Shown here in pieces: positions 18,686 through 60,200 of a DNA stretch of 64,000 nucleotides. Source of the DNA: Cystobasidiopsis lactophilus (lineage: Eukaryota; Basidiomycota; Agaricostilbomycetes; Agaricostilbales; Chionosphaeraceae); the NCBI GenBank assembly GCA_001599975.1, contig BCIO01000003.1:2288677-2352676 (forward strand). The letters run 5' to 3'. The notes below the pieces were generated by a model, which did not search any database, was not told the DNA's origin, and worked only from the letters and a program-made list of their open reading frames with translations. Numbering within the stretch: position 1 is the stretch's first letter; each line of letters opens with the position of its first letter. The position numbers were made by a program, and so were the translations under genes.

Positions 18686-19823
18686 TCATCTGAACCTTAA
18701 TGAGCAACTCACGCTCGCCTGGGCAATGCGGATGGGGCTCTGGCGAACCTCGAGCTGGATGGCCTTACAGGTCTTTTTGTGGCCACCTGTCTTGAAGGAT
18801 CAACTGGCGCAAAGGACTTCTCAGAGACAGCTAACGAACGCTTCCAGGCGCCAGCTGCGTGTTGAAGCCCAATGTCAGCTTGACGCCCGCCACCAATGAG
18901 GGAAAGTTGACACCTTGGCAAGCTTCCGAGCAGTAAAAAGTGATCTTGCAGCCAGAGCAGGCTTGCATGGAGCCCAGCTTCCAGCAGCCCCAGAAGGCGC
19001 ACTTCCTCACCCACTCGACCTTGGGAGCGGCGCCGAGTTCGGGGCGGTGCTTGGCCACAATGGCCTGGGCTTGTTTCGTGATATGCGGAGGGTACTGCTC
19101 CTGAGCACCGAGCTTCAGCATCTCGATGTACTGAGGGGCGCTCTTGCCGAGAGTCAAGGGCAGGCCTTCCAAGAAGGACGAAAGGATGCGGGCGTCGCGG
19201 AAGATGAGGATTTGAGGTCGAAAAGGTGCCTGCTGAGCAACGATGCTGTCGTGGATGCCATCGAAGATGGCGGAAGCGACGTGGCGGGCCCAGAGCCAGC
19301 GCATGACCCTGACCTGCGAATTATCGGGCGCGCTGACGATCTCGCTGATGCCGGGAAACTCGGGCGCCCTGTCCACCTTGCGAGGGTTCTTGAAGCCTTG
19401 TTCGAAAGGGGGCAGGATGGGGCCATAGCCGCCTTTTTGGAACGGAGGGATGATGGTGCCAGCGTGGTCGCGCCAGTGGAAAGCGGCAGCAAAGATCTCC
19501 TCGGAGCCAGCGACGCGGAAGAAGTCCACTATCCATACGTTGGGGGCTTCTTCCTGCAGCTGAATGGGGCTGGGGAGGCGGGTGAGCGTGTTGACCATGC
19601 GCTCGACCCGGGCATCGCGCTCCTTGTTCGTCTCGGCGGTGGCATTGGCTTCCTTGTACGAGCTGATATAGCTGCGGTAGATCTCGTTTGCCTCATCGAG
19701 ATTGGCACGCTCGCACTCCTCCTCGGTCTTCGTCTCGGTTGCTGGGGCTTTCCTGGACAGCTCAGGTTTTTGCACAGTGCAGCGTGTTCACGATCACTCA
19801 CGTATATCAGGAGTCTGCTGCAT
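18686..19823 (-). CDS. MYND zinc-finger protein
   Basis: The C-terminal MYND finger is probably a protein-interaction module; the N-terminal body is of unknown function. The first exon encodes MQQTPDI and splices (GTGAGT to CCCCAG) into PTETKTEEECERANL, then about 250 residues of mixed helical sequence (NVWIVDFFRVAGSEEIFAAA, ARHVASAIFDGIHDSIVA). The MYND finger starts CAFWGCWKLGSMQACSGCK and YCSEACQ. It can only be completed by a 15-nt exon (18840-18854) giving AGAWKR, followed by an exon from 18786 giving GHKKTCK. The result fits Q-x3-W-x3-H-x3-C. The C-terminal tail ends at 18686, unless a further GTGAGT donor near 18716 is used. The finger sits at the C-terminus, unlike yeast Mss51. Confidence 0.8.
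18840..18854 (-). other. 15-nt micro-exon completing the MYND finger
   Basis: Minus-strand exon CTGGCGCCTGGAAGC, flanked by AG before and GT after. It links CQ to GHKKTC as CQ-AGAWKR-GHKKTC and supplies the conserved Trp of the MYND consensus. Its length is a multiple of three, so skipping would keep the frame and remove that Trp. Confidence 0.7.
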
Positions 19824-20251
19824 CTTGAGAGAGGGACAGTGAGGGTCTTTTGTGAGTTCTACAGTCACTTGGGCCTTGGAGGGTGGTCGAACGGGACCAA
19901 AAACCGACGCTCGGTCGTCAAGGTCTGGTGTGACCACCGCACCACTCGTGGGGACTGCTGCTCAAAGCTCACGACATGCTTTCGTTCTACTCATCTTAGT
20001 ATTCAGGTAGAAACGCTTCCCAACAGCTCTCAGGAGCTCAGTGTCCATGGGCAAACTTCAAGTGGAAAAAGTCTTGGGGAGACGGGCCAGTCTCTCGATG
20101 CAGGGGGGAGAAAACACATGATGCTTGGGGCCTGGAGGGCGTTCAAATCTGGTCTCTCGACAATCAGTAAAGCTGATACGGTTCGAGAGTGGAAGGCCTG
20201 CACCTAGAGCCCGGGGATGAAATGATACAAAGTACACTTGTAGGCCACACG
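19824..20251. promoter_or_regulatory. Promoter region of the MYND gene and 3' flank of TAF13
   Basis: 428 bp between the MYND start and the TAF13 stop, which lies upstream on the same strand. A plus-strand open frame crosses it but continues antisense through the MYND gene and has no family features. Nothing else is supported. Confidence 0.4.
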
Positions 20252-24068: not shown

Positions 24069-24687
24069 CACTCTGTCTCTGCTTCTGGCGCGCCGACACC
24101 GCCACACAAGAGCACACGACCAAACTTCTTTGTTCATACAACCTGCCTCGCAGCTCGCAGCATTTCTCCGCCCTCTTCACGACCTTCAAGCCCCTCTACG
24201 ATCCTCTTCCCCTTCTTCATTTTACCCAGCATTAACACCGAATATACCTGGCGGCGGTGGTGCTCTCAGCTCCCCCTCTGCCCTCTTCATGGAACTCGCC
24301 TCTTCAAGTCGCGCCTGCGCCGTCTGGAGGCTTTTCCCACAAGCTCTTGTGTTCTTTGGTTCTTCTCTCTGTACACAAAGGGGCCAGCTGCACGTCGACT
24401 CTAGACGAGTTGATCGCCGGCGTTGATAATGGGTCGTTTAGCTTGGTTTAGCTTGAAGCTTGTTCTAGCGCATATCAAAGGGCTACTCCATTTGAACATA
24501 GATTACATCTGCGCTCTCCAAAGCGCCGTCCTAGATCAAGGGCAATGCAGACGCGTTGACTGGCCAGGCCCTGCATTTCACGCGCTTTCAAGGCCGCATG
24601 AAAATTTTCTGAGCCGGCCGTTCTTTGCAGGATTTGCGTTGGTTGTTCTCGCTCGCTTTGCCACCCTTTGTCCTCTTCCCCTCTTGC
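24069..24687. promoter_or_regulatory. Promoter and long leader of elongation factor 3
   Basis: 619 bp with no supported protein exon. It is pyrimidine-rich on the plus strand (about 24150-24330), as in strongly expressed fungal genes. A leader intron ending at the CAG near 24630 is plausible. Confidence 0.4.
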
Positions 24688-27600
24688 ATGGTCGGTGTTG
24701 TGAACATGGCCGCCAACGGGACAGCTACCTTGTCGCCCAGCGCGCAATTGCAGGCGATTTATGCAGCCTCGACCTCGTTCGAAGCCCGGGAGCAAACGCT
24801 CAAGCTGGTCCAGTATGTCAAGCAAGCCGGCTTCTCCTCCCTCTACACCGACGCCATCCTGCCCGACTTGATCCGCGCCACCCGGTCCAAGAGCGGCATC
24901 GAGCGCGAGTCGGCCTTGCTCGCTCTGAGCGTTTTGTTCGACAAGCTGGCGCCCGGCGCCGAGCCCTTCTTCCTGCCCGTGTGGAGCGACGTGTTGGAGC
25001 GCTTGCAAGAAGTCGGCAAGGCGCAGGTGGTTGCTGACGCCGCGGACGCCGCCTCCAAGGCCTTGCTCAACGCCATCAAGCCGGAGAGCGTGATGAGGGC
25101 CCTCGACGTGCTCTTCACCCAGGTGCTCGAGAACAGCAGCGCCAAGTGGAGGGCCAAGGTCGGAGCTCTTGAGGCTGTGGCTTTGCTTAAAGAGAAGGGC
25201 ACGTCCCAGATCGCTGAGCACTTGGGGGACATCATCCCTCGCTTGACCGCCCAAATGGGCGACACCAAGATTGAGGTGCGTCTTCGACTACTTGGCCAGC
25301 AAGCTCGCTTGCTGATCTGTTTTTCTCCGCTCGCACAGGTATCTGCTGCCGCCATCAAGGCCGCCAATGCCGTTTGCTCCGTCCTCACCAACCCTGATGC
25401 CCTTCCTTTCGTTCCTTTGCTTGTTGAATGTGAGTTTCGTTCTGCATTATTCTCACATGAATACGAGTTAATCATCAACTTCACAGGCATGGCTCACCCG
25501 GACAAGCTGGCCGAGGGAGTCAAGAAGCTTTCCTCGAACGTGTGGGTGCGCGACGTCGACGGCCCGACTTTGGCCGTCATCGTGCCCCTTCTCAACCGCG
25601 CCCTGAGCGACCGCAACACCACGGTCCAACGGCAGTGCGTCATGCTCGCCGCCAATTTGTTCAAGCTGGTCCGCTCCCCCGACCTCGCCGCCAAGCACAC
25701 GCCCTCCCTCTTGCCCGGCGTCTCCCGCATCTTCGAGTCCGCCGCCTTCCCAGAGATCCGCGCTTTCGCCGAGGAAGCCAAGATCGTGCTCGAGCACTCC
25801 ATCATTGGCGCCGCCGACTCGGTCCAGGACGAGCTGGAGCAAAAGCAGATTGCAGAGGACGAGGCAACCGCGGTGGAAATGCTCTCCACCTTGATCACCA
25901 AGGAATCGGGTGCCCCGCCCACCCCGATTTGCCAGCAGGCCTTGAAGTGGGTCGGCGCCACCGTCGCACTGCTCGTTGCCAAGCGCGACTTTGACGAAGA
26001 GGTCTGGAAGAGCACCTACGTCGGCCCTTACCTCCTCAACTTTTTGCCTGAGAACCAAGCTCAGGGTATCTCTACCGAGGTGCTCAAGCGGTGGTTGGAA
26101 ATCGACAGGGTGCGTTCCTCACCAAATATTTCGAGCGAGATGCTCAAAGAGATCCCACGCAGATCCGCAACCTTGGTAACATCCAAGAGGAGGACGATTC
26201 AGAGGGCGAAGTGCTCACCAACATTCCCTTCTCGCTCGCCTATGGTGGCCTGCTCCTCCTCAACCACACCGTTCTCCGCTTGGTTCGCGGTCACAGGTTT
26301 GTGGTCGAGCGCTTCATTCATCCGATATCGTGATCTGAATTAGTCTGCTGGTTCAAACAGATATGGCGTGTGCGGCGCCAACGGTGCCGGCAAGTCGACC
26401 CTGCTCAAGGCCATCAACCGCAAGCAAATCGAAAACTTCCCGTCCCACCTGACCACCTTTTACGTCGAGCACGACATCGACTCTTCCGAGTCGGACGACT
26501 CGTGCTACACCTTCATGTGCAACGACAAGTTTGTCAAGGGCGTCGGCGCCACCCAAGAGAAGATCCTCACCATCTTCGAGGAGTGCGGCTTCACCGAAGA
26601 CAGGCGCGCTTTGACTGTCGGTGCGCTCAGCGGAGGCTGGAAGATGCGGTTGGCTTTGGCCAGAGCCATGATTTGCGGCGCCGACATCCTGCTCCTGGGT
26701 GGGTTGCTCCCATGCTTGATCAGACGCTAGAGCCCTGATTGACTTGGGTTGCCTCTCACAGATGAGCCCACCAACCATTTGGACGTGGGTTCCGTCGCCT
26801 GGCTGCAAGACTACCTTAACGCCCAGACCAACGTCACCGTCCTCGTCGTCTCGCACGACTCGGGCTTCTTGGATGCCATCTGCACCGACATTATCCACTA
26901 CGAGAAGAAGCGCTTGGTCTACTACAAAGGCAACCTCAAGGCGTAAGCGGGCACCCATTTTTCTCAAGACGTGGCGAGCCTGACCTCGTCTTTGTCTTTT
27001 GCAGCTTCGTGGACCAGCATCCTGCGGCGCAGTCTTACTATACCCTTAGCGCGAGCTTGGTCAAGTGCGTCGTCTCTACAGAATTCTTGGCAGACCCGGG
27101 GCTGACGCAAATTGCCCAGATTCTCCTTCCCGCCGCCTGGTGCTTTGGTTGGTGTCAGGTCTAACACCAGAGGTATCCTCAAGATGACGGTGCGTCTTAC
27201 TCCTGAACACGTTCACGTTCATGTGCGAGTGCTCAAGATGAGCCGTGCGAACAGAACTGCACCTTCACCTACCCCGGCGCTGCCAAGCCGTCGCTGAGCA
27301 ACGTGTCTTGCGCTGTGTCTTTGTCGTCGCGTGTTGGCATTGTGGGACCTAACGGTGCCGGAAAGGTGCGTGACTGCTTGCCGTCTATGGTAGGCTTTGA
27401 CTGACGCGGCCTGCAGTCCACCTTGATCAAGCTGCTCACCGGCGAGACGATCCCCGACTCCGGTAAAGTCGAAAAGCACCCCAACTTGCGTGTTGCGTAC
27501 ATTGCGCAGCACGCCTTCCATCATATAGAAGAGCACCTCGAAAAGTCAGCCACCCAATACATCAAGTGGCGGTACGCGGACGGTACGGACAAGGAAATGG

Positions 27601-28706
27601 CTGCCAAAGCTTCCCGTCGTCTCTCACCCGAGGAGAAGCGCATCTTGGAGACCCCCATCGAGGCAAAGTCTGGCGAGAAGCGATTGATCGAGATGATCAT
27701 TGGGCGACAAAAGCTCAAGAAGTCGTTCACCTACGAGATCAAGTGGAAGGGATTGGACCACAAGATGAACACCTGGATCCCGCGCGAGCGCCTCATCGAG
27801 CTCGGCTTCACCAAGATCCTGCAGCAGTTTGACGACTTCGAGGCATCGCGAGAGGGCGCCGGCCAACGCGAGCTTACCGGCTCCGCTGTCCGCCAGCATC
27901 TCGAGGCGCTGGGCTTGGACGGCAACATCGCGGAGTACAACGAGATGTCGGGTCTCTCTGGCGGCCAGAAGGTCAAGGTGGTCATCGCCGCCGCGTTGTG
28001 GGCCAAGCCGCAGGTGCTCATCTTGGACGAGCCGACCAACTTCTTGGACCGCGACGCTCTTGGCGGCTTGGCAACTGCCATTCGCGATTGGGCAGGCGCT
28101 TTTGTGTGCATCTCGCACAACGTCGAGTTCGTCACCGCCCTCTGCCCCGAGCGCTGGGAGGTCGAGGGAGGTCGCCTCACGCACAAGGGCAAGGTCAACA
28201 TCGTCGAGGACGCGTTCGAAGACCAGGCGGCCAAGGTGGAGTCAAGGGAGGCCAGCAGAGCCAACACGCCCACCATCTCGAAGGGTGCTGCTCGAATGGC
28301 GGCGAAGTTGGCTGCCCGCACGCCTGGCTCCTCCGGCAAGAACAGCGCTGAGTCTAGCGCCGCCAACACGCCAGCTGGCACCCCTGCGCCTGGCACACCC
28401 ATTGGGTCTGGCGACGAAGCCAACGCGAACGGCTCTCCCTTAGGCGCACCCATGCCCAAGGTGGCCAAGAAGAAGCTTAGCCGGAAGCAAGTGAAAGAGG
28501 CAAGTACTCTTGCCCACTCTTTCCACAGACGCTCTCTAATTGAATCTTGTGCTTTAAACAGCGAGAAGAACGTCGGCGTGCCCGCACATTACGCTTCCTG
28601 AGCAGCTCGATCCCCGGCACCGTCGTGAGTGGCCTTTGTTCTCCCGTTGCCTGTAGTCTCCTGCTCATATTCTTTGCAGAGGGAGCCCGACACCGACTCT
28701 GATTAG
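24688..28706 (+). CDS. YEF3: Translation elongation factor 3 (eEF3, ABC-F type ATPase)
   Basis: A fungal ribosome-associated ATPase that helps release E-site tRNA. The start is ATG 24688 or the in-frame ATG 24706 ([11 protein letters not shown]). Domains: N-terminal HEAT repeats (to about 25960), a linker, ABC1 with [29 protein letters not shown] and DEPTNHLD, then ABC2 with [29 protein letters not shown] and [10 protein letters not shown]. The chromodomain insertion ([17 protein letters not shown]) in ABC2 is diagnostic for eEF3. Introns fall inside Walker B of ABC1 and inside the P-loop of ABC2. The tail has a Thr/Pro repeat ([14 protein letters not shown]) and a basic end ([18 protein letters not shown]), with the last exon REPDTDSD and stop at 28704-28706. 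The lysine blocks usual at the yeast C-terminus are shorter here. Confidence 0.96.
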
Positions 28707-29282: not shown

Positions 29283-32200
29283 ATGAAGCCTCGGCTGGGT
29301 GTCCTCGATCGACGACCTCTGCCACCTTTCATTGCGCCAGTGGACGACATCAACCCGTCGCTTTCGTTGACGCTCGACCCGGCCAAAGGCTCGCTGCGCC
29401 AGCAGATCAAGGCGCTCCAGGCCGCCATGGACAACGTGCCCCAGAGGAAGCCCCTGCCTACCCCACCGGTTGGCGCTTACATGCCGGGTGCCTATGGGAC
29501 AACCAGGCTGCAGTACGCCCCGACACGCCAGCAGCTAGTCTACGTGGGCGAGCCTCAAGACGGCCTCTTCTCTGACTTCCCTCCCACGCCGGCGGTCAAC
29601 TCACCTCCTCTGTCGCCTTACGCCAGTCCTCCTCACTCGCCAGAGAAGGCTAGACAGCTGCCTTTGCCTCGTGAATCCCAAGTGCCGTTGTCAAACTCGA
29701 GCTCCATCTTGCTGGTGTGTTGCTTCGCAATTCCTTAGGTTCATTTAAGCAGCAACATAACATCCAAGAACAGCACAAAGGCTTCTGGGATCTATTGGGT
29801 CTCGCACAAGCAACGGGCAGCGTCATACGCAACATGCCGCCGGCGAGCTCACCATACTTTGGAGAGGACACGCCTTACGCTGCCGCTCGGACTCAGGCGT
29901 CTCCCCCGCTACCTCCCGGTGCAACCACCATCAGAGCCAAGCACCAGCCTTATACGCCGTCTCCAACCGCATTGCCGCCACCGGCGAAACGCCGCATCTC
30001 GCGGGACATGATCAGCTCTCCCACGGGTTTTGCGTAAGAGAGCTCCATTTCCACTCTCTGCCAACTTTGCTGAAAATATTGGTCTGTACGATTTGCAGAC
30101 ACTTGTGCCACGCCAGCGACGCCGAGCAAGCGGAAGCGATTCTCACGCGGTGGCAAAAGGATGGGATCGGCAAGCTTCCAGGTGCGCACACTTTACCTTT
30201 AGATACCTTAAGAAGGAATCCTCAGGCGGAAGTTGACCACAGATCCCGCGTGGATCATTCCCATCAAAGAAGCAGCTCGCAGCCGAGCGCGAGCCAAAGG
30301 CATCGCACAGGTCCAGTCGTTCCGCGATGAGGTGGTGCACCCATTCGCGACTTTGAAAGTGATCAACCCGTCTGACTCCATGCTTTCCAAAACGACCGGG
30401 ACAATCACCACGGAGGACCATTCTTTGAGCAGCCCCCAGTCTGAGCGGTCGTCGCTTGCGCCTCCTTCGCCTGTGCGCTCTGACACAGCAGACACCATCA
30501 TCATTCGGCCTTCTACTAGGCCGCCGCTTCCACGTTCATCGCTGTCGCAAAGCAACTTGGACGAGCAGCCTCAGTCGGTGGATCCACCTCGTTTCGCACC
30601 CTCGCTAGAAACACTGGAGAGAAGCTCCGCGGCGGCCATCTACTTCGAGCAGCTATACTATGGCATTCTGAAACGCCCCAAAGCAAGAGACCAGCGGCTC
30701 AAGCAGCTCGAGAATGCGCTGCACAACTTGCCGGACGCCGAGCGCCGGGCGGCCCGAGCGGCTTGGGCAGAGGCGGAAAGCGAGTACCTGCGCGAGCTCA
30801 GGACTCGCATCGATGTGGGCTCTTTCGTCAAGCTCAAGACGGTCGGGGCTGGGGCTTTTGGCGTCGTCAACTTGGTTCGAGAGAAGGGCACGGGCCAGCT
30901 ATTCGCCATGAAGCAGCTCAGCAAGGACTCGATGCTGAAAAAGTCGCAGGAAGGTCACGTCCGGGCAGAGAGGGACTTCATGGCGCAGGCGAGCCAAATC
31001 ACGCGCTGGATCGTCCGGCTTGCATACAGCTTTCAAGACGCCGACCATCTCTACTTGGTCATGGAGTGAGTTTTTCAGCTGCCATGGAGCATCTCAAATC
31101 TGAAAGGGTCTCAGGTGGATGGGTGGCGGCGACATGCTCAATCTGCTCATAGAAAAAGACGTTTTTCCGGAATCGTTCGCTCGGTTCTACGTTGCAGAAA
31201 TGATCTTAGCTATCGAGGAGGCCCGCAAGTCTCTCATAGACTCAAACCTTGAGGCAAGATGACTCACTACCGCTTGCAGATAACCTTGGCTTCATCCATC
31301 GCGACATCAAACCGGACAACTTTCTGCTCGACTCCAGCGGTGAGGCAATACCTGCTCTCGAGACTCAGGTATCTAATGAATACGACGCATCTCACAGGCC
31401 ATCTCAAGCTGAGCGACTTTGGTCTAGCAACAGGTGCGTAGTGCTGTTCCATTGTTCGACAAATTGGCTGAGAGCCGCTTTCACCAGATTTCCATTGGTA
31501 CCGCTTATGGCTCATCTCCCTCTTTTAAGTGATCTAAAAGTGCTCTGCAGGGGCCACGATGGCGCATACTATGATCTACAGCGGAAAGCGCTGCTCCGCA
31601 AGCATGGCATCGACTTGGCCGACGGGACGGCAAGGATAACCCCCGGTCGGCAGCGTCCGCCAATGGAATTTGATCGTGAAGAATCGGCAGCAGCAAAGGC
31701 TGAAACGATCCTCACCATGCGGGACAAGAGCCGGCGAAAGCTAGCCTACTCGGTCGTCGGGACGTGAGCGGTCCTCTTTTTTGACTGCCTTATTCCTCTT
31801 TTCTGATTGAAAGAGAAGGAACAACTACATGGCGCCAGAAGTTCTCCGGGGGCAAGGCTACGCCCAAAGTTGCGACTGGTGGAGCGCGGGCATCATCACG
31901 GTAGGCTCAATCTGCACTCAGTCGTTCGTTTTGCTCACCAGTCTCAACAGTTTGAGATGCTTTACGGCTACCCTACCTTCGTATCCAAAACACGGCATAT
32001 CACACGCAATAAAATCCTCAACTGGCGCCAAAATCTCAAGTTTCCGTCCAAGCCCACCGTCTCGCGCGATGCCCAAGACTTTATCGAGAAGCTGGTGTGC
32101 GAGCGAGAAGACCGACTGGGCAGCTTGGGCACTACAAGCGTGTCTCGGCCCAATTCCCAGATTCTGCTGGAGCGTCGCAGTGGCTACTTCAATGCCAATG

Positions 32201-32776
32201 CCGGGTCGCGCTACACAGGTGCTGAGCAACTCAAGGCACGTCGATCATTTATCACCGGCACACTGTACTGAAGGTGTTGAGCGATCAGGCCCACTCCTGG
32301 TTTCGCGGCCTTGATTTCAACACCATCCATTTGCAAACGCCACCATTCGTGCCTAAGCTCAAAGGTCAGTCATATGACTTAACTGCCATCCCTCTGCATC
32401 ACCTGAATCTGGGCGTTCAGACGCGGCCGATACGAGGTACTTTGAAGATGGGATTGCACCAACGCCGCTGGCACCTGCCGATGGCCAAAGCCCAGACTCC
32501 ACAAAGGACCCTTTGTTGCGCGACCCGAAGAACGGCAAGCATCTGTTGGAAGTGCGCAAGTCCCTCGCCTTCGTTGGATAGTGCGTCCTCTCCATACCAG
32601 AGAGTTTCGCTTGGAAAGGCCTCTGAGCAGATTCGAGCAGCACCTACAAGCGGCCCAAGCGAACAATCCACGATCCTCGCGTTGGCATCATAGAGAACAA
32701 GTCACAGGACCGGGTCGGCCGGCCAACGGAGAGGGTTGCAGGGGGGAGCAGCCTCATTCGTTCGCTTTCCCTTTAA
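29283..32776 (+). CDS. NDR/LATS-family AGC protein kinase with N-terminal CRIB-like motif
   Basis: A Ser/Thr kinase of the Mob-regulated NDR/LATS group. The start is ATG 29283. A Pro-rich N-terminus is followed by ISSPTGF and, after an intron, AHLCHASDAEQAEAILTRW. Together these give I-S-x-P-x2-F-x-H-x2-H, the core of a CRIB (Cdc42/Rac-binding) motif, ending GKLPDPAWIIPIKEAA. In the same continuous exon come the NDR N-terminal regulatory helix (YFEQLYYGILKRPKARDQR) and the kinase domain: GAGAFGVVNLVREK, FAMKQL, FIHRDIKPDNFLLD, LSDFGLAT, a long activation-segment insert, then YMAPEVLRGQGY. The tail has the hydrophobic motif FVGYTYKRP, which is diagnostic for NDR/LATS. About eleven introns, including a 10-nt exon at 31488-31497 and a GC-AG intron at 31225-31279. 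A second possible GC donor lies near 32236. Orthology to Cbk1, Dbf2 or another member is not settled. Confidence 0.9.
31225..31279 (+). other. GC-AG intron in the NDR-type kinase
   Basis: The donor is C|GCAAGT and the acceptor CTTGCAG. Only this join yields AIEEAHNLGFIHRD, where the split codon supplies the conserved His before the HRD loop. The nearby GT at 31229 would lead to an immediate stop. Confidence 0.7.
31488..31497 (+). other. 10-nt micro-exon in the kinase activation segment
   Basis: ATTTCCATTG lies between CACCAG and GTACCG. With its neighbours it reads LAT-DFHW-GHDGAYYD, which matches the NDR/LATS segment after DFG (xFHxxHDxxYY). Without it the frame is lost. Confidence 0.65.
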
Positions 32777-33090: not shown

Positions 33091-34269
33091 TCACTGGAGG
33101 GATGTCGAGGAACTGGCCTCGAGAGAGGCGTCGGCGGCAGCAGCAGCGGTCTCCGATTGGAGCTTGTGGATCTTCATATGCCGCTTAAGGTTGCTCTGAA
33201 CGCTGAAGCTGCGTCCGCAACTGAAGAGCGCCAAGTCATCAGAATTGTGCAAATTGAGACATGGCGGGAAAAAAAAAACTTGCACTTGACAATCGAATGG
33301 CCGCTCGCCGGTGTGGGAGTGGACTGGAAGCACGGCAGCGAGTAAGCGAGGAAGGCGAGGAGGCAGCGTCGGTACACATACCGTGGATCTTCAGCGAGGA
33401 TGGGCGCGTGAACCGCTTTTGACAATATTGACAAGCGTATTTGCCAGGCTCCGAGCCCGCGGCAGCCTCCTCCCCGTCCGACTTGCGCGGTTTCTTGGCC
33501 TTGACGGGCCCCGTATTTGAGCTGCCAGAGGGCGTTTGCGGCTGGTGGTAGGCATTTGGATTGATGTAAGGTGATGGAGATCTGGAGCGATCGCTTGAGC
33601 CGCCAAGGGAAAGGTCGCCGACCTCTGGATGGTCGCCGGGCGGCGTCAGTAGAGGCGGCGGGATGTAAGGATCGAGGTAGGAGGGGTGGCCGCCGTGCTG
33701 TGGCATCGGGTGCACCAAGGACGAGATGGGCGGAAGATACGCCGAGCCGGGTGCTGCGCCGTACGGATTGAGGTAATGGTCGCCGGCGTGCTGGCCCTCC
33801 TCAAGTATGGCCGGGGAAGGAACATTGGAGTTGCTGAAATAGACGGGCGAGGCCGAGCGGGGACTGAGGGAGGAGGGGGACGGCCAGCCGTCCGGCCCGC
33901 CCTGCCCATCGCTCCTGGGCGCAAACGAGTACGAGCCAGGCCGAGGCAGGTGGAATTGAGGCCTGCGTTGGTACCAAGTGGAGTCCCTGCTTTCCATTCC
34001 AGCATTGGGCGGCGGCAGCGAGATGGGGGGATAAGAGGGCTGATGCTGTTCGGGCTGCTCGCCCTGCCGGGGCCACGGCGGCTGCTGTTGTGCTGACTGC
34101 TCGTTGGCCTGCCAGTCGTCCTCAGGCGGCGGCACCAAGGCTGCCTGATAGGTCGGAAACTGTGTCGAGCACCAAAATAAAGACGACGATCCCCGCTGCT
34201 CCGGCGCTCAAAGGCTAATAGACGCACCTCGGACGGCGGCCCATCAGGGAAGTAGTGTGGACTGTCCAT
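33091..34269 (-). CDS. C2H2 zinc-finger transcription factor (RPSSLKIH type)
   Basis: A predicted nuclear regulator with two C-terminal fingers. From the ATG at 34269 (MDSPHYFPDGPPSE) an intron leads to a Pro/Gln/Ser-rich region and a basic stretch (KAKKPRKSDGEE). Finger 1 is YACQYCQKRFTRPSSLKIH; an intron splits the linker (V-HSHTGERPFDC). Finger 2 is CQV-CGRSFSVQSNLKRHMKIH. The join inside finger 2 requires a GC-AG intron (33221-33283). The pair RPSSLKIH / SVQSNLKRH is a common fungal arrangement (Azf1-like), but I do not assign an orthologue. The frame stays open upstream to an ATG at 34752 with a basic, arginine-rich segment, so the N-terminus may be about 160 residues longer. Confidence 0.83.
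33221..33283 (-). other. GC-AG intron inside a zinc finger
   Basis: On the minus strand the donor is GT|GCAAGT and the acceptor CTCTTCAG (63 nt). It gives FDCQVCGRSFSVQ with the canonical C-x2-C spacing. Both nearby GT donors put the second half of the finger out of frame. A T10 run follows the donor. Confidence 0.7.
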
Positions 34270-41209: not shown

Positions 41210-41723
41210 ACTCTCAGGCAGTAAACCCATTCGTGCTCTTTCTCTGTCAAGAGTTATGTTGCAACCTTCGTCAAACTCCCGTAGATACCGGTTCACTCTG
41301 TTATAGTCGTCTCTATCACCCGTCCTTTAGAGCGCCGTGTCTTCTACAACCTTGAATACTATGAACATTGTAATTGAAGCTTTCTCGCGTCGCTCTCAAA
41401 AGTTTTGGGCGGCATGACGAGAGCAAGTGGGACAAGCCCGGCCGGCAGCAAGGTGGAGCCCGCTGTGCGAGGATTTGCGGATTTGCCTTCTGTATACCAC
41501 CAACACGCTTACCTTCTGCCAACCCCTTCGAGATGCCGCCTACTTCAGTTGCCCAAGTTGCCCATTGAAGCCTACGACCTGCAGAAATTTAACTTTGGGA
41601 GGCGTTGCATTTGTCCAGCGACTAGCGTAATATCATCTGCCGGCCAGAAGAGAGGCCGCCTTTGGTGTCCAGCAGTGCAAGCGGCGGTGTTAGAGGATAC
41701 CTTCAAGACTGTAGACTGGGGCC
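41210..41723. promoter_or_regulatory. Promoter region of the phytochrome gene
   Basis: 514 bp. It may include the unplaced last exon of the GRGGAGN-repeat gene. No other coding exon is supported. Confidence 0.4.
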
Positions 41724-44700
41724 ATGGCCTCGCCAAGGTCGACGGGCTTTCCGCCAGGCGAGGAGAGCAGCAATTCGCCGGTCAGCAGCGCAGGAGGGCC
41801 CACGTCGCCTATCGACACGAGCAGGTCCGTGGGCAGCAACGAACGCATCTTCCCCATCTCCTCGTTTCATAGCGGCCCACTGTCCTCTGCGTCTGAAGCG
41901 CCTCCGCCCTTTTACCCACCCATCCCGACCACCTCCTCAACTTGGAGCCAGCCGCCGCCCATCAAGCGCACCGGCTTCTCCGACGACATCTCCTACTTTG
42001 CTCCAAGACCTGCTAGCAGCACCTCGGGCACGAGCCGGCGGGCGTCCCACGATTCGTCGGACACCACGCCGAAGAGCGCGCCCTCCGCCCGCTATGTCCC
42101 CAGCCTCCCCTCCCAGCCGTCGGTGCCCGTGACGCCGTCCGAGCTGCCTGATGACAGCTTGCCTGACCTGCCGCCAGACGAAGACATCATCGAACGCGCC
42201 CGGCTGGCCCGCATTAGAGCGTCGAAGGAGCAGCCATCGCCAGGTCTGCGCAGGGTGCCATCAGAGCAGCTCATGACTGTTCGATTCGAGCACCAAGAGA
42301 CGTCAGATGGCCATATGATCGTGACAGGGCGGTCAGGCGAGCTGCAGCGGTGTGAAGATGAGGTGCGCCAAGTTGTTTGGGTCCGATGTCCCGTTTTCCG
42401 GTCACTGATCCACGTCTTGCTGCAGCCGATCCACATTCCTGGAGCAGTACAAGCCTGGGGTGTGCTAATTGCCATGGAGATCGATCGGCATGGCAACTTC
42501 AAGGTTCGGCAGGTGTCCGAGAACAGCGGCCACATCCTCGGCCTTCCGCCCTCGTACTTGTTCAGCCTCAGTTGCTTCACAGTTTGCTTGGACGAAGAAG
42601 AGGCCGAGGTTCTGAAGGAGGCGCCCCAATACTGCCCGACTAGCGACGCCGAGCTCTCAGAGTCCGGGCCATACCACTTCGAGCTGGCAGGGACTGGTTT
42701 GCCAGGGACAGGCTTGGACGGACCGGAGAGCCGAGCCGACTGGATCGCGTGGTGCTCGATGCACAAGCCAGATCGGGCGAACCGGCCAAACTTCGTTGTG
42801 GTCGAGTTCGAGCTTCAGCAAGACGGGCTGAACCCGCCCATCACCCACAACTCTGACCCCTTGGCCGATGACGAACGTGGCGGTCTGGCTGGCGAGCCCT
42901 ACGAGCCGACGGAGGAAGATCTCAAGGAATCGACCATCAACGCCGCCAAGCCCCTGCGCAAGCGATTAGCGAATGCCCGAAATCGAGGCAATTCGCGTGA
43001 CTTTGGCACTGTCGACATTTTCCTTACCCTCAATCAAGTCCAGGACCAGCTCTCCAAAGCGGCCGACCTTCAAACCTTCCTCAAAATCGTGGTCGGCGTC
43101 ATTCAGGACCTCACCGGCTACCACCGCGTCATGATCTACCAGTTTGACGAAGTGTGGAATGGACAAGTGGTGGCCGAGATCGTGGACTGGAGCAAGACGC
43201 GCGATCTGTATCGCGGCCTCCATTTCCCTGCCAGCGACATCCCCGCCCAAGCCCGCGACATGTACAAAACGAACAAGGTTCGCCAACTCTACGATAGAGA
43301 TCAACCGACCGCTCGGATGGTCTGCGCAAGCAAGGCGGAGCTGGATAGACCGCTGGACATGACTCATGTTTCGCTTCGCGCAATGAGCCCGATTCACATC
43401 AAATATCTGGCCAACATGGGCGTGGTGAGTCGCTCTACAGCCTTATGCTCTGTATTTGGAAGAGCCGCTGATTGTTTTGAAGCGAGCGTCTGGATCGATC
43501 TCGATCCTGGCGTTTGGAACTCTCTGGGGCCTGATCTCATGCCATTCTTACGGCCGATACGGGCAGCGCATGACGAGCCCGCAGCGACAACTGTGTCGCA
43601 TCCTGGGCGGCGACATTTCGCGCAACATTGAGCGGCTTTCGTACGCCCAGCGGCTACATGGCCGCAAGCTCATCAACACCGTCAGCACAAAATCCAATCC
43701 ATCTGGTTACATTGTCGCCAAGGCTGAAGATCTCCTCTCGTTGTTCGATGCCGAGTTTGGCTGCCTATCGATTGGAGAAGAGGCCAAGCTGCTTGGCCCA
43801 ATGGAAAACTCCCAAGAAGTCCTGGCTATCCTGGATTACCTCCGGCGACGCAAGAACAAGTGCGTCTCTCGTGCCTCAGGTGGACAAGCTATCAAGTTGA
43901 CTTGGCGTCGCACAGCTCCATCGTCTCCAGCCAAAATATCCAAACCGACTTTCCCGATATTCGAGTGCCCGGCGGCTTCCAATTGGTGGCTGGCATGCTG
44001 GTCGTGCCGCTCTCCTCGAGCGGGCGTGATTTCATTGTCTTCTTCCGACGCGGCCAGATCAAGCACATCCATTGGGCTGGCAATCCGTACGACAAGGCGA
44101 TCAAGGAAGCTGAACAAACAGCACCAGCCTTGGAGCCTCGCAAGTCATTCAAACTTTGGTCGGAAACGGTCATCGGCAAGTGCAAAGCCTGGACCGACGA
44201 CCAGCTCGAAACCGCGTCCGTGCTCTGCCTCGTCTATGGCAAATTCATCTCTGTCTGGCGGCAAAAGGAGGTCGCCATGCGCTCCAACCAACTGACCTCG
44301 CTGCTGTTGTCCAATGCCAGCCACGAAGTCCGAACACCCCTCAATGCCATCGTCAACTATCTCGAAATGGCCCTCGAAAACCAGCTCGACACTGATACTC
44401 GCGACGCCCTCACCAAGTCCTACTCCGCATCTAAAGCCCTTATCCATGTCATCAACGACCTGCTCGATCTAACGCGAGTCGAAGGAGGCAACGATCTGTA
44501 CTTGCAAGACCCTATCGACCTGCCCGCCATCGTGGAGGACGCTGTGGCTGTCCACAAAGCCGAAGCCGAGCGGAGGAGTATCGCATTTGATGTGATTCAC
44601 ACGACACCGAACGAGCGGCACATGGTCCTCGGAGATCGAGTCCGCATGCGGCAAGTGCTGGGCAACAGTGCGTTTCTTTGCTGCCGGCTGTTTATCGGAA

Positions 44701-46358
44701 TGCTAAGCCTGCTCACAGTTGTGTCGAATGCGGTCAAGCATACCAAGGAAGGCCGTGTCACGGTCGAGTGGGGCAAGGATGAGCTAGCCGAACCACGCCC
44801 GCCGCTTGATGCCCGCCATGTCGTTCGCTTTGCCGTGACAGACACAGGGTTTGTCTTCTCTTTTGCATCAGTCGATTGCTTCTGACAGGTGTCTGTACAG
44901 GTCTGGCATGACCAGTGCGACACTAGACAACCTGTTTCGCGAGTTTGAACAGGTGGAGACCTTCGAGAGCGACTCAGGCCATGGTGTGACGACCAAACAG
45001 CAAAACCCTAAAGCTCTCGGCCTCGGCCTCGCTGTCGTTGCTAGGATTATTCGGACCATGGGAGGCCAGCTCCGCGTCGAATCCACCGAAGGCACCGGCT
45101 CCACGTTCACGATCATCATGCCGTTCAAGGTTCCCGAGGAGGAAGGTGGCAGCAGCAAGGGCAAGTTGTCAAGGACTTCAAGTGCCAACAGCATTAACTC
45201 TGGCAGCGCCAAATCCTACCGATCGGGCTCTTCGGGTCACCGCTCCGAGCTGGAATCTTTGGTGGATGCCATCACTAACGACCAATCCAAGGAAAATGCC
45301 TACTCGATTACCGAGATTGAAGATGCACCCTCCACCGCCGCTCCGTCTTTGGATGGCACGCCGGGCAATGTAACTCCGGCAAGTCCAGGCGCGGTCGGGC
45401 TAGCTGGGTCAGGAGTGCCGCTGCGACCTGTGCGACTATCCGACGACGACGTGGTGTCTGCTCCTCCTCCTTCCCGGCGCCCGGTTCCAGATCGCTCTCT
45501 GTCAACCGTTGCCCTTTTAAGGGGCTCGACCGCTTTGCCCACGCCACCGGAATCGCCTCTTGTCTCGCCCGGCGCAGGCTCCACCTCTTCTTCGTCTCCC
45601 AACAAGTTTGCCTCCGCCTGGGCGCAGATCCGTTCGACAAGAACAAGCAGCACGGTCTCCAATGACAACGTGGGCGTAAAACCGATGCGCATCTTGGTGG
45701 TTGAAGTGAGTTCGCACCCTCTACATCACATCGATCCGAGCTGAAAAGGCGCTTGCAGGATGATCCAGTATGTCCCGAAAACCAGATTCCGTGGTAGTCT
45801 GCGCTTATCTTCCCATTCCAGATCAATCGCGCCATCCTGCAAAAAAAGTTGGCCAAAGCCGGGCACACTGTGGCGCTAGCCTTTCACGGTCAAGAAGCTG
45901 TCACGCAGATCGAAGAGAATCCCGACGCATTTGACGTTATCCTTATGGATCTTCAGTACGCCCTCATGCTTCTGAGCTGGGCCAAAGTGTGACTTATCAC
46001 CGGCATCTCGTACAGAATGCCAATATGCGACGGCTTGACTGCGACGCGCCGGATTAGAGATTTGGAGAAGAAGAACGCCGGCGCCGACAAAAAGCCCAAT
46101 CGCGTCCCCATCGTCGCCGTATCGGCGTCACTGCGGGAAAAACAGCGCCCCGAGCTATTGGATTGCGGCAGTGCGTTGGACCAGTGTACTCTTTTGACGT
46201 CCTTCGCTGATTTTGGTTTTCTAGTGGACGGCTGGATGCTTAAACCCATCAACTTCGAGCGCATGACGGCCATCCTCGCAGGCGCAATTGATTCCGACGA
46301 ACGAGCAACTGAAAAGTATCGGCAAGGGCATTTCGAGCGTGGCGGTTGGCTGTCTTGA
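41724..46358 (+). CDS. Fungal phytochrome: PAS-GAF-PHY sensor, histidine kinase and receiver
   Basis: A red/far-red photoreceptor and hybrid two-component kinase. A Ser/Pro-rich N-terminus (ATG 41724) is followed by QRCEDE and, after an intron, PIHIPGAVQAWGVL. The Cys just before this motif is the bilin attachment site in fungal and bacterial phytochromes. The GAF domain has FPASDIPAQAR and MSPIHIKYLANMGV; the PHY region carries GLISCHSYG. The kinase has SNASHEVRTPLNAIVNYLE (phosphorylated His), an N box in SNAVKHTKEG and a G box in ALGLGLAVVARIIRTMGG. A Ser-rich linker leads to a receiver, MRILVVE-DDP-INRAILQKK, with the phospho-Asp in VILMDLQMPICDG and the Lys in WMLKPINFERM. The acidic pair comes from a 9-nt exon (45759-45767). 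About nine introns. All catalytic residues are present, so it looks functional. Confidence 0.96.
45759..45767 (+). other. 9-nt micro-exon encoding the receiver acidic pair (D-D-P)
   Basis: GATGATCCA between GCTTGCAG and GTATGT. It joins LVVE to INRAILQ. The two Asp are the Mg2+-binding acidic residues of the receiver domain. The length is a multiple of three and both flanking introns are phase 0, so skipping would keep the frame but remove the acidic pair. Confidence 0.8.
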
Positions 46359-57275: not shown

Positions 57276-60200
57276 TTAATCACTTTCCTCTTTCCCCTCA
57301 TTGTCAAAAGCCTCGAGTTGCTTTTCGAACGCATCGTCCGAAAGGTCGCCGCTGGCTGACACCACTGCCTTCCTCGCCCGGTCCGACCTCCTGGGTGGAC
57401 CTGCCCCGTCATCGTCCACCGGCTTGGCCTCTGCCTTTGCCTTCTTCTTTTTCTTGGCGTTGAGCTCGCGGATGGCGGCCTCATCATCGCTCTCGCTTGA
57501 GGAGTCTTCCCTCCTCTGCTTCTTCTTCTTGGTCGATTTGGCAGTGCCGTTCTCTTGACTCTTGCGCTTCTTTTTCGGTTCACTGCACATTGGCTAGTCA
57601 GCTCGGTCGCGGCCAAAGCCGGGTTGGCCAAAGCCTCACTTTTTGACCATAGCCCCAGTCGGCGATGACTTCCGTTTGCGAGGTTTGGCGGTCTTCGGCT
57701 TCTCTTCCTCCTCGTCTGCAGAGCGCTCTGGCTCCTCCTTAACCTTTTCCTTCTTGACCTTCGGGCCAGCTCTCTTCGACTTCTAGGAGAATGTGAGCAC
57801 ACGAGCACGGCGATTACATTCTTTAGAAGCCACGGCTTACTTTGGCATCGCTCTTTTCCGGATTGAGATACTGCGTAAGAGCGGCGGTGGCGTCTTCGGA
57901 GAGCCATTGGCGCTTGTGAATCTTCTGCTGAATTTCCATGGACGGCAAGCTCTTGAAGATATCGGCCGGCATGCTGATGCTTCCAGGGTAGGTGGCGATC
58001 GCCCACGAGTGTGAAGCGGCTCGATGGCGGATCACATGCTGCGCTATCTCTGACAAAATGTAAAGATTCTGCGCTCGCCAACAATCAGTGGATGGAACCA
58101 CATCAGTGAAACACTCCCATACCTCGGTATGGCCTTGAGAAGTGGCGTCGCGGATGGTTCGCAGCTTTGCGGCCAAGTGGAAGAGGAGAGCAATGTTCTC
58201 AGAGTTGGACACGCAATCGAGGAACAAATCAATGTATCTAGTGCCTCCTCTTTAGCGATGATCTCACCGGCGCAAGGATGGCTCTCACTCTGCAAAAGTA
58301 ACAACATCTTCGGGCTCAGCGGAAAAGTCAGGGTGGTGCGCGAGGAGGTGCAGGAGCCGAACGAAGGGCATTTCGAACGCCGTCAAGCGCATCTGAGTGG
58401 CCAGGCGATGGATCCGAGCGCTGATGCTGCTTTTCACTCGAGAGATGTTTTCCACCTCCGGGTCGTGGGCAACGAGGTAAAGCAAAGTGTTGAGATGGTA
58501 GCTGACCCGCCGTCGGGAGAGGTAGCTGGTGAGCTTGATCATGAAGCGCTGTCGCACTCCGAACGCATGGTCTTGCATTAACTGGGAAAGCTGGTTGATT
58601 GCGGCGAGAACCTTGAGCTCCACGCTTTTGATGCTGCTGAGCTTGAGGACGGAAGTCGCCGCTTGGAGGCGGAGTCGCGAAGCATCGCTCGGCTGGAACT
58701 TGCCGGGACCGTCTTGCACCTCAATCAGCCGCCAGAGCAGGGGAAGCAAATCCTCGGCCGCTGTGGCCTCTCGATCCGGCGATGCCTTCAGTTGCGAGAG
58801 CGCCAGGTTTGTTAAAACCTTCAAGCTGAACACAAGGACCAAAGAACTGGCTTGAAGGTCTTCATCTTCAACCCAGTCCTCCGAGTCTTCCATCTGCAGG
58901 TTGGCCTGACTGAGCGAGCTGCACCGTAGGGAGGTCAGCATACACACCGCCACATCTTCAGGTTCCAGAACGTCTTGGGTGAGGATGGAGCGTAGCAGTT
59001 CGATGCGGGTATCGAAGGCGGCGAAGGATCCTTTCGCAACGCGATTGAGGACGAAGAGAGCCCGCGCTTGACCGGTCGCATCGAGAGCCGGGAAGCCGTC
59101 GACTACTTCTTCGACCAGCACGACGACGGCATCAGAGTCGGGCAGGTGTGCATAGATGGTGGCTGCGTGCTTGGCTTGAGTGAATGAGCCTTCAGTGATG
59201 AAGTGGCGCAGCCGCGTTTTCAATTTTCTACAGAGTCATCAACGTCACGCTATCTCTAGCTGAAATCAAAGTGAAATTGACTGACTGTGAATCCTCCAGC
59301 TTCGTCGCGTCGGTCTGGACCATACGGCTGAGTGCGAACAGGCACGCTTCTTCAAAACGGGGCGAGGACGTCTTGAGGATGCCGTCCACCAGGTCGTCCA
59401 TAACACCCGAAAACAGCATCGGATTCATCTTGGCGATGTCCGACAAGACCGACAGAGCAAGCTCGGCCACGCGCTCTTCATCTTCCGCGGTGGCGTCGGC
59501 ATCTCGAACGCGCTCGAGCAACGTGGGGATCGAATTGCGGTTGACGAAGAGTAGAGAGCTTTGCCGCATGAAGAGTGCAAAAGTGGCAGACAGGGTGTCG
59601 GCTGATTGTTCGATCCGCCTCTTGGCTTCGCTGTAAGTCTTGATCAAAGTTTTGAGGTCGGTTTGCTGATCCATTAGCGTCTTGAGCAGCTTGTAGATCC
59701 GGTTCTCGTTCATCTTGGCAAACTTCATGAGGTCTTCATAGGCGCGCTTAGGGTCCGGGTAGTAGACGGTCAGGAACTTGGCCGATTTTTGGAGGTTGCT
59801 GGTCACTGTTTCGCTGTCTTCGTCGATGACGCCGCCCTGGTCATGGTAAACTTCAGCAGAAACCATTGACTGGAGAGGTCCGACGGACATTGTAGGCTTC
59901 ACAGGCCTCGAGGAAGACAGGGAAAGGGTTATTGGACGCCAGGCCCAGGTGAATGATCCGGCTGAGGACCAGGCGAGAAGATTCTGACAGTGTCGAGAGG
60001 ACGACGAGGTACCGGTCGACCCAAACCGACTCGTCTTCCGCTCTGGACGGCAAAGGCAGAATGTTTTGCAGCAGGGCGTTTTCGATTTGATTTCTGCCGG
60101 GCTCGCTCAGCACGAGGCCTGGCAGAAAGAGGGGATTGTGCTCACCGCAGAGCAAGGTCGCCTCCAGAACGATAGGTTTGTAGGAGCTCATCGGGGATCC

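Follow-up and report, generated by a model that had tools for sequence, protein, structure and literature searches.

A candidate CRIB core upstream of the Mob-binding region in an additional NDR-family kinase of Cystobasidiopsis lactophilus

Fungal polarity is controlled both by Cdc42/Rac signalling and by the NDR kinase (MOR/RAM) pathway, and the locus described here raises the question of whether the two could meet within a single protein. The locus lies in a 64,000-nucleotide stretch of the Cystobasidiopsis lactophilus genome (assembly GCA_001599975.1, contig BCIO01000003.1, positions 2,288,677 to 2,352,676 of the forward strand; hereafter the window), in which a predicted gene appears to combine a CRIB core—a candidate binding motif for the GTP forms of Cdc42 and Rac—with the Mob-binding region and catalytic domain of an NDR-type kinase. 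In excerpts of PMC6367570, Orb6 is described as phosphorylating the Cdc42 exchange factor Gef1 in vitro and restricting Cdc42-GTP, as well as acting independently of Gef1, and a CRIB serves there as a Cdc42-GTP reporter. If the motif in the window kinase is functional, it would provide a direct link from a GTPase to an NDR kinase, running opposite to, and beside, the Orb6-Gef1-Cdc42 route.

The kinase gene, modeled at 29283-32776 on the forward strand with predicted splicing, starts with an ATG at 29283, ends with a stop codon closing at 32776 and comprises 13 exons encoding 919 amino acids free of internal stops—a span with the same ends as those given in a preliminary description of this DNA. 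The model was built from scripted lists of splice-site pairs avoiding stops, which were then combined, the resulting transcript structure being a prediction; introns 4, 7 and 8 were varied in this process, and the remaining ones were set by eye according to splice consensus and the match to kinase motifs. Three open combinations were obtained, distinguished solely by intron 8, and the variant yielding SVVGTNNYMAPE was chosen because it fits the kinase consensus with no residue extra or missing. All twelve introns are GT-AG save two of the GC-AG type (31225-31279, donor GCAAGT, and 32236-32288, donor GCACGT). For intron 2, 12 donor/acceptor pairs that avoid stops were listed, and the pair used, which runs from the GTAAGA donor at 30034 to the TTGCAG acceptor at 30098, was selected by eye on splice consensus.

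With this junction, ISSPTGF and AHLCHASD are joined across the intron, as the preliminary description had proposed, into ISSPTGFAHLCH (residues 224-235), which in the predicted splice form fits I-S-x-P-x2-F-x-H-x2-H in full, with both histidines kept. The consensus applied, I-S-x-P-x2-4-F-x-H-x2-H, is taken from excerpts of PMC8847673, in which one or two variations of the core are considered compatible with binding. Each of the two PAK-like CRIBs in the same genome is short of one core residue. Basic residues (AKRRISRDM) precede the core of the window protein, and inspection by eye placed a helix-prone stretch, DAEQAEAILTRWQK, and a P-x2-W element (LPDPAW) downstream of it; the correspondence of LPDPAW to the P-x2-W of PBDs is uncertain, as the alignment put another tryptophan at that position.

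Could such a core arise by chance? The N-terminus in which it sits is rich in proline (15%) and serine (11%), scanning many motifs will turn up some matches, and the junction may be spliced otherwise, in which case the gene would encode an ordinary divergent NDR kinase. We consider this improbable. Under an independent-residue estimate, the expected number of exact cores is 2.4e-6 for the 388-residue N-terminus and about 0.02 per 3.5 million residues of whole-protein composition, and even the looser pattern [IVL][ST]xPxxFxHxxH had no match when the window was translated unspliced in six frames (127,996 residues). Moreover, the sole Pfam family recovered at E<=1 with an 84-residue fragment of the protein was PBD, aligned to the core, whereas none of six shuffled versions of the fragment yielded any Pfam family at E<=10; the chosen junction also has the best-looking donor of those listed (GTAAGA, by eye). 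What speaks for a coincidence, besides the composition, is that the Pfam E value for the fragment (0.17) is not significant on its own, that the core is present with one open junction in twelve and that exon 3 lacks support from codon usage.

Codon usage was evaluated by training on nine window frames with Pfam matches and scoring the predicted frame of each exon against the other five. The predicted frame ranked first of six in 12 of the 13 exons, the best-frame scores of exons 7 and 13 still being slightly negative, and it led in five of the six 150-base pieces of exon 4. Exon 3 (83 bases), which encodes half of the CRIB core, is without codon-usage support because a reverse frame outscores the predicted one (3.8 vs 2.1). 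A first training set of nine long frames had given the predicted frame as best in 12 of 13 exons, with exon 3 tied; the test was redone with Pfam-matched frames because that set included at least one doubtful frame. The doubtful frame spans 18900-20204 (+), and the frame opposite to it carries a MYND match.

A more radical alternative would divide the locus into two adjacent genes, with a CRIB protein ending near 30330 and a kinase starting within exon 4. If intron 3 is retained, the frame does reach a stop at 30330 (open reading frame 29761-30330), and the donor of this intron, GTGCGC, is not ideal by eye. However, the sole GT-donor pair among the four listed for intron 3 (30182-30242, 61 bases, GT-AG) joins GKLP to DPAW and carries the reading frame on in phase, free of stops, as far as the kinase; within exon 4 no stop interrupts the stretch between DPAW and the kinase, and the first 150 bases of this exon score as coding (10.8, best of six). 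We regard a two-gene arrangement as highly improbable. That DPAWIIPIKEAA, the Mob-binding region and the start of the kinase all fall within a single exon, as noted in the preliminary description, is reproduced in our model.

By sequence, the window gene encodes an extra, divergent NDR-family kinase on the Cbk1-like side. Using the protein from the Mob-binding region onwards as the query against PDB, yeast Cbk1 (354.8 bits) ranked above human STK38 (291.5 bits, a shorter construct) among the best 60 of 136 distinct sequences passing 1e-40. An MRCK/ROCK identity was rejected, as MRCK beta (CDC42BPB, 229 bits) and ROCK1 (226.6 bits) scored below both, and a PAK identity was likewise discarded, the best matches being NDR and other AGC kinases with no PAK among those 60 of 136. 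The Mob-binding region aligns from query residue 4 to Cbk1 from residue 39 onwards and shares the R-x2-R of the helix and the LRxxRTR of the Arg-rich linker; excerpts of PMC4428629 present the role of the N-terminal Mob-binding helix and N-linker as a feature of NDR/LATS kinases. The Pfam Pkinase match scored 199.8 bits and the catalytic motifs are intact in the alignments, with an elongated activation segment of 74 residues between DFG and GT that ends in KSRRKLAYSVV and contains both the basic stretch and the serine. The hydrophobic motif F-x2-[YF]-T-[YF] is present as FVGYTYKR, compared with FIGYTYSR in Cbk1. Both the NDR/LATS-type assignment of the kinase and the naming of FVGYTYKRP as its hydrophobic motif, made in the preliminary description, agree with these results.

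Pairwise identities in an eight-row alignment were 44.0% to the Cbk1-like kinase of the same genome, 42.7% to yeast Cbk1 and, in a partial row, 49.5% to human NDR1; the Dbf2-like (L010, 33.5%) and Rim15-like (L008, 36.1%) kinases were more distant, and partial rows for NRC2-like and Akt-like kinases gave 44.3% and 40.1%. Four rows (L008, L010, L011 and L012) were joined by eye, and their labels are presumptive, given by reading the sequences. The corresponding tree counts against a firm family assignment—it places the window kinase weakly (fork 70/84) and does not separate the Rim15-like kinase—and because of this weakness NDR membership rests on the Mob-binding region, the activation segment, the hydrophobic motif and the PDB ranking. 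Orthology to Cbk1 was rejected since the Cbk1-like kinase at C2:1618907-1622479 is far closer, with 67.2% identity to yeast Cbk1, and a Dbf2-type identity was rejected since the kinase at C3:1304181-1307426 reads as Dbf2/Sid2, a presumptive label given by reading. Given these separate Cbk1-like and Dbf2-type enzymes, the window kinase would be at least the third kinase of this kind in the genome and, being additional to both, could be deleted without removing either. The preliminary description thus needs the correction that the window kinase is not the Cbk1/Orb6 orthologue, and our finding is silent on CRIB control of the canonical kinases. As a separate observation, the C-lobe of the kinase contains an insertion of about 29 residues relative to Cbk1, from RLGS to the GAEQLKAHSWF block (window positions ~32120-32220).

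Several results weigh against a functional CRIB in this kinase. HLCH arises from one of the 12 open intron 2 pairs, the chosen one, such that the core hangs on a single junction, and the exon behind that junction is the one in which a reverse frame scores higher. The V-G usually found after the second histidine is A-S here, which includes the glycine-to-serine change already pointed out in the preliminary description, and ASDAEQAEAILTRWQKDGIGKLPDPAW comes next after the core, in place of the PAK hairpin stretch VGFDxxTGxFTGLP, which is absent. The search of the spliced N-terminus with Pfam PBD, proposed in the same description, gave a mixed outcome: the 84-residue fragment scored 12.6 bits, below the cut-off of 21.3, its alignment covering profile positions 1-15 of 59, i.e., the core alone, and PBD was not listed at E<=1 in a scan of all 919 residues. 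When the block served as query against PDB sequences, three matches came up at E<=10, none of them a CRIB protein, and no second copy of the block was found in the genome, where the three matches are all exons of this gene. The order of CRIB and NDR kinase is known here from one gene of one fungal genome. The CRIB identity first assigned to the block thus stands as to its exact core and falls short as to the profile score and the V-G pair.

The same profile library performed differently elsewhere in the genome (22.1 Mb, 8 contigs), where PBD had three matches, all above the cut-off, at 86.4, 84.9 and 44.9 bits—another point to the disadvantage of the window block. Kinase motifs in the translations identify two of these loci as PAK-like kinases, and the third encodes a WASP-like protein with a WH1 match about 0.4 kb away. 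The Cbk1-like and Dbf2-type kinases of the genome both lie away from these three places. This search runs exon by exon, and CRIBs split by an intron, including that of the window, escape it; more split CRIBs may therefore exist in the genome, even near the other two NDR kinases.

A different account of these data is that the block derives from, or resembles, a CRIB and binds Rho-type GTPases poorly or another partner altogether, the protein being a Mob-dependent additional NDR kinase under ordinary control. The PBD score below the cut-off, its restriction to the first 15 profile positions and the absence of V-G and of the hairpin-like stretch seen in both PAK-like CRIBs all fit this account, yet the six residues I, S, P, F, H and H are all intact, which would not be expected under unconstrained drift. 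We judge such degeneracy rather unlikely. On balance, we lean somewhat towards the N-terminal block being a functional Cdc42/Rac-GTP-binding motif in a Mob-dependent NDR kinase, with an affinity that may be low—or a motif that may be degenerate—because the profile match is weak and the hairpin missing.

Candidate partners for a functional CRIB and for the Mob-binding region are encoded in the genome. The Mob search gave seven matches at four places, five of the seven above the cut-off: a Mob1-like locus (L020-L024), two Mob2-like loci and a phocein-like one, which lies below the cut-off and was named by reading (L025). The first Mob2-like assignment (L019, C5) is narrow, with 81.6 bits to yeast Mob2 vs 75.5 to human MOB1A; the second, more divergent one (L022, C1) scored 50.9 vs 40.3 bits, the two queries being 100 and 104 residues long. 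A private partner deduced from a unique extra Mob was rejected, since four Mob loci are found here and four also in N. crassa, according to excerpts of PMC7096357. Two Cdc42/Rac-like genes were located by protein query: C4:3061032-3061583, with exons 87, 61 and 79% identical to the Cdc42 query, and C1:2694845-2695271, with exons 78 and 48% identical. Inspection of ten Ras-family loci led to no Cdc42/Rac-like gene.

Taken as sequence predictions, the gene model, the CRIB core, the NDR kinase features and the Mob2-like and Cdc42/Rac-like genes are in place for a possible mechanism. Cdc42-GTP or Rac-GTP would bind the CRIB core together with the helix-prone stretch behind it, which would recruit the kinase to where polarised growth takes place and might also relieve an inhibition exerted by the N-terminus—a long and probably disordered region. 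A Mob2-type coactivator might dock at residues 389-452, and an upstream germinal-centre kinase might phosphorylate the hydrophobic-motif threonine of FVGYTYK. That the GTPase, acting through the CRIB and along with Mob2, switches the kinase on at the growth site is a possibility to which we give tentative credence, somewhat short of an even chance. The features of the gene on which this scheme draws are collected in Table 1.

Table 1. Predicted features of the kinase gene, in window coordinates.
Feature	Position	Strand	Remarks
Exon 1	29283-29714	+	Proline-rich N-terminal region with RPLPPF and KPLPTPP; frame score 32.5, best of six
Exon 2	29774-30033	+	Closes with ISSPTGF (30011-30033), first half of the putative CRIB core
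Intron 2	30034-30098	+	65 bases, GTAAGA...GCAG; interrupts the putative CRIB core; consensus choice among 12 open pairs
Exon 3	30099-30181	+	Opens with A-H-L-C-H; HLCH (30100-30111) is the second half of the core, followed by ASDAEQAEAILTRWQKDGIGKLP
Exon 4	30243-31065	+	One open frame with DPAWIIPIKEAA, linker, Mob-binding region and kinase start; frame score 54.4
alphaMob/N-linker (Mob-binding) region	30632-30823	+	Residues 389-452; alignment to yeast Cbk1 and the Cbk1-like kinase of the same genome
Kinase domain and C-terminal extension (exons 4-12)	30824-32580	+	Pfam Pkinase and alignments
Kinase motifs	within 30824-32580	+	Glycine loop, FAMK, HRDIKPDN, SDFG, KSRRKLAYSVVGT activation segment, APE
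Hydrophobic motif FVGYTYKRP	32570-32656	+	Interrupted by the last intron (32581-32640)
Exon 13	32641-32776	+	Tail and stop codon

Two further elements of the N-terminus deserve mention: RPLPPF and KPLPTPP of exon 1, which we take to be SH3-ligand-like, and HKGFWDLLGLAQATGS, which opens exon 2 (29774-29830) and resembles a short conserved-type motif amid low complexity, with no Pfam match there. The kinase gene is preceded by a gene for an EF3-type protein (24613-28700, +), in which the EF3 N-terminal HEAT repeats occupy one long frame and the ABC and chromodomain matches another; by eye, this gene appears to end about 0.6 kb upstream. Downstream of the kinase lies a Ser/Pro-rich frame on the reverse strand (33239-34207) whose C2H2 zinc finger match, at 22.5 bits, is weak and falls short of the cut-off (25.2). 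Farther along, the window contains a fungal phytochrome histidine kinase in three long frames (41715-45744, +; PAS_2, PHY, HisKA and HATPase_c, with GAF below the cut-off) and a PDS5 cohesin subunit (58288-59235, -; 183.5 bits).

Among known systems, the window kinase shares with Cbk1/Orb6/COT1, which act with Mob2, the kinase domain, the Mob-binding region, a long activation segment whose serine is preceded by basic residues and the hydrophobic motif, and differs from Cbk1 in having GTNNYMAPE in place of GTPDYIAPE and a 388-residue N-terminus with a CRIB core. Kinases of the PAK family (Ste20/Cla4 type) likewise carry a CRIB ahead of a Ser/Thr kinase domain in one protein, but their kinase domains belong to the STE group, and the PAK-like CRIBs of this genome match nearly the whole profile (84.9-86.4 bits), whereas the window block matches in the core alone (12.6 bits). 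MRCK/DMPK enzymes are AGC kinases combined with a CRIB and have a related kinase domain (229 bits); in MRCK, however, the CRIB lies at the C-terminus, and the window kinase is nearer to Cbk1/NDR and has a Mob-binding region.

NDR kinases that accompany Cbk1 have precedents in other fungi, which we liken to the window kinase by description, orthology not being implied. Excerpts of PMC3591445 place An-Stk21 of A. nidulans (AN10485; stk-21 in N. crassa) beside the Cbk1 orthologue, and those of PMC3245316 describe the 'Cbk1-like' Fg01058 of F. graminearum as an additional NDR kinase. M. oryzae MGG_09519, listed as CBK1 in excerpts of PMC9765699, has 488 residues and a kinase match beginning at residue 98, which leaves little room for a CRIB, and the basidiomycete Wolfiporia cocos is credited in excerpts of PMC5030230 with two CBK1 orthologues and said to lack DBF2, so the second of these might be Dbf2-type. 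The excerpts of these four papers mention no CRIB for the respective kinases, and those of PMC1420674, PMC3218828, PMC2838846, PMC8429772, PMC2684140, PMC7409079 and PMC3738472 contain nothing on a CRIB-bearing NDR kinase; we found none described among the papers listed in searches of open-licence full texts. Scans with exon 4 gave no relatives among three pattern stretches in viral contigs and 64 in contigs of prokaryote genomes. Excerpts of PMC2838846 do count PBD among the kinase-linked domains in all types of fungi, the carrier kinases being unstated, and the CRIB/NDR architecture may already sit unremarked in basidiomycete protein databases. Additional NDR kinases beside Cbk1 are thus already in print—what appears new here is a candidate CRIB core in such a kinase.

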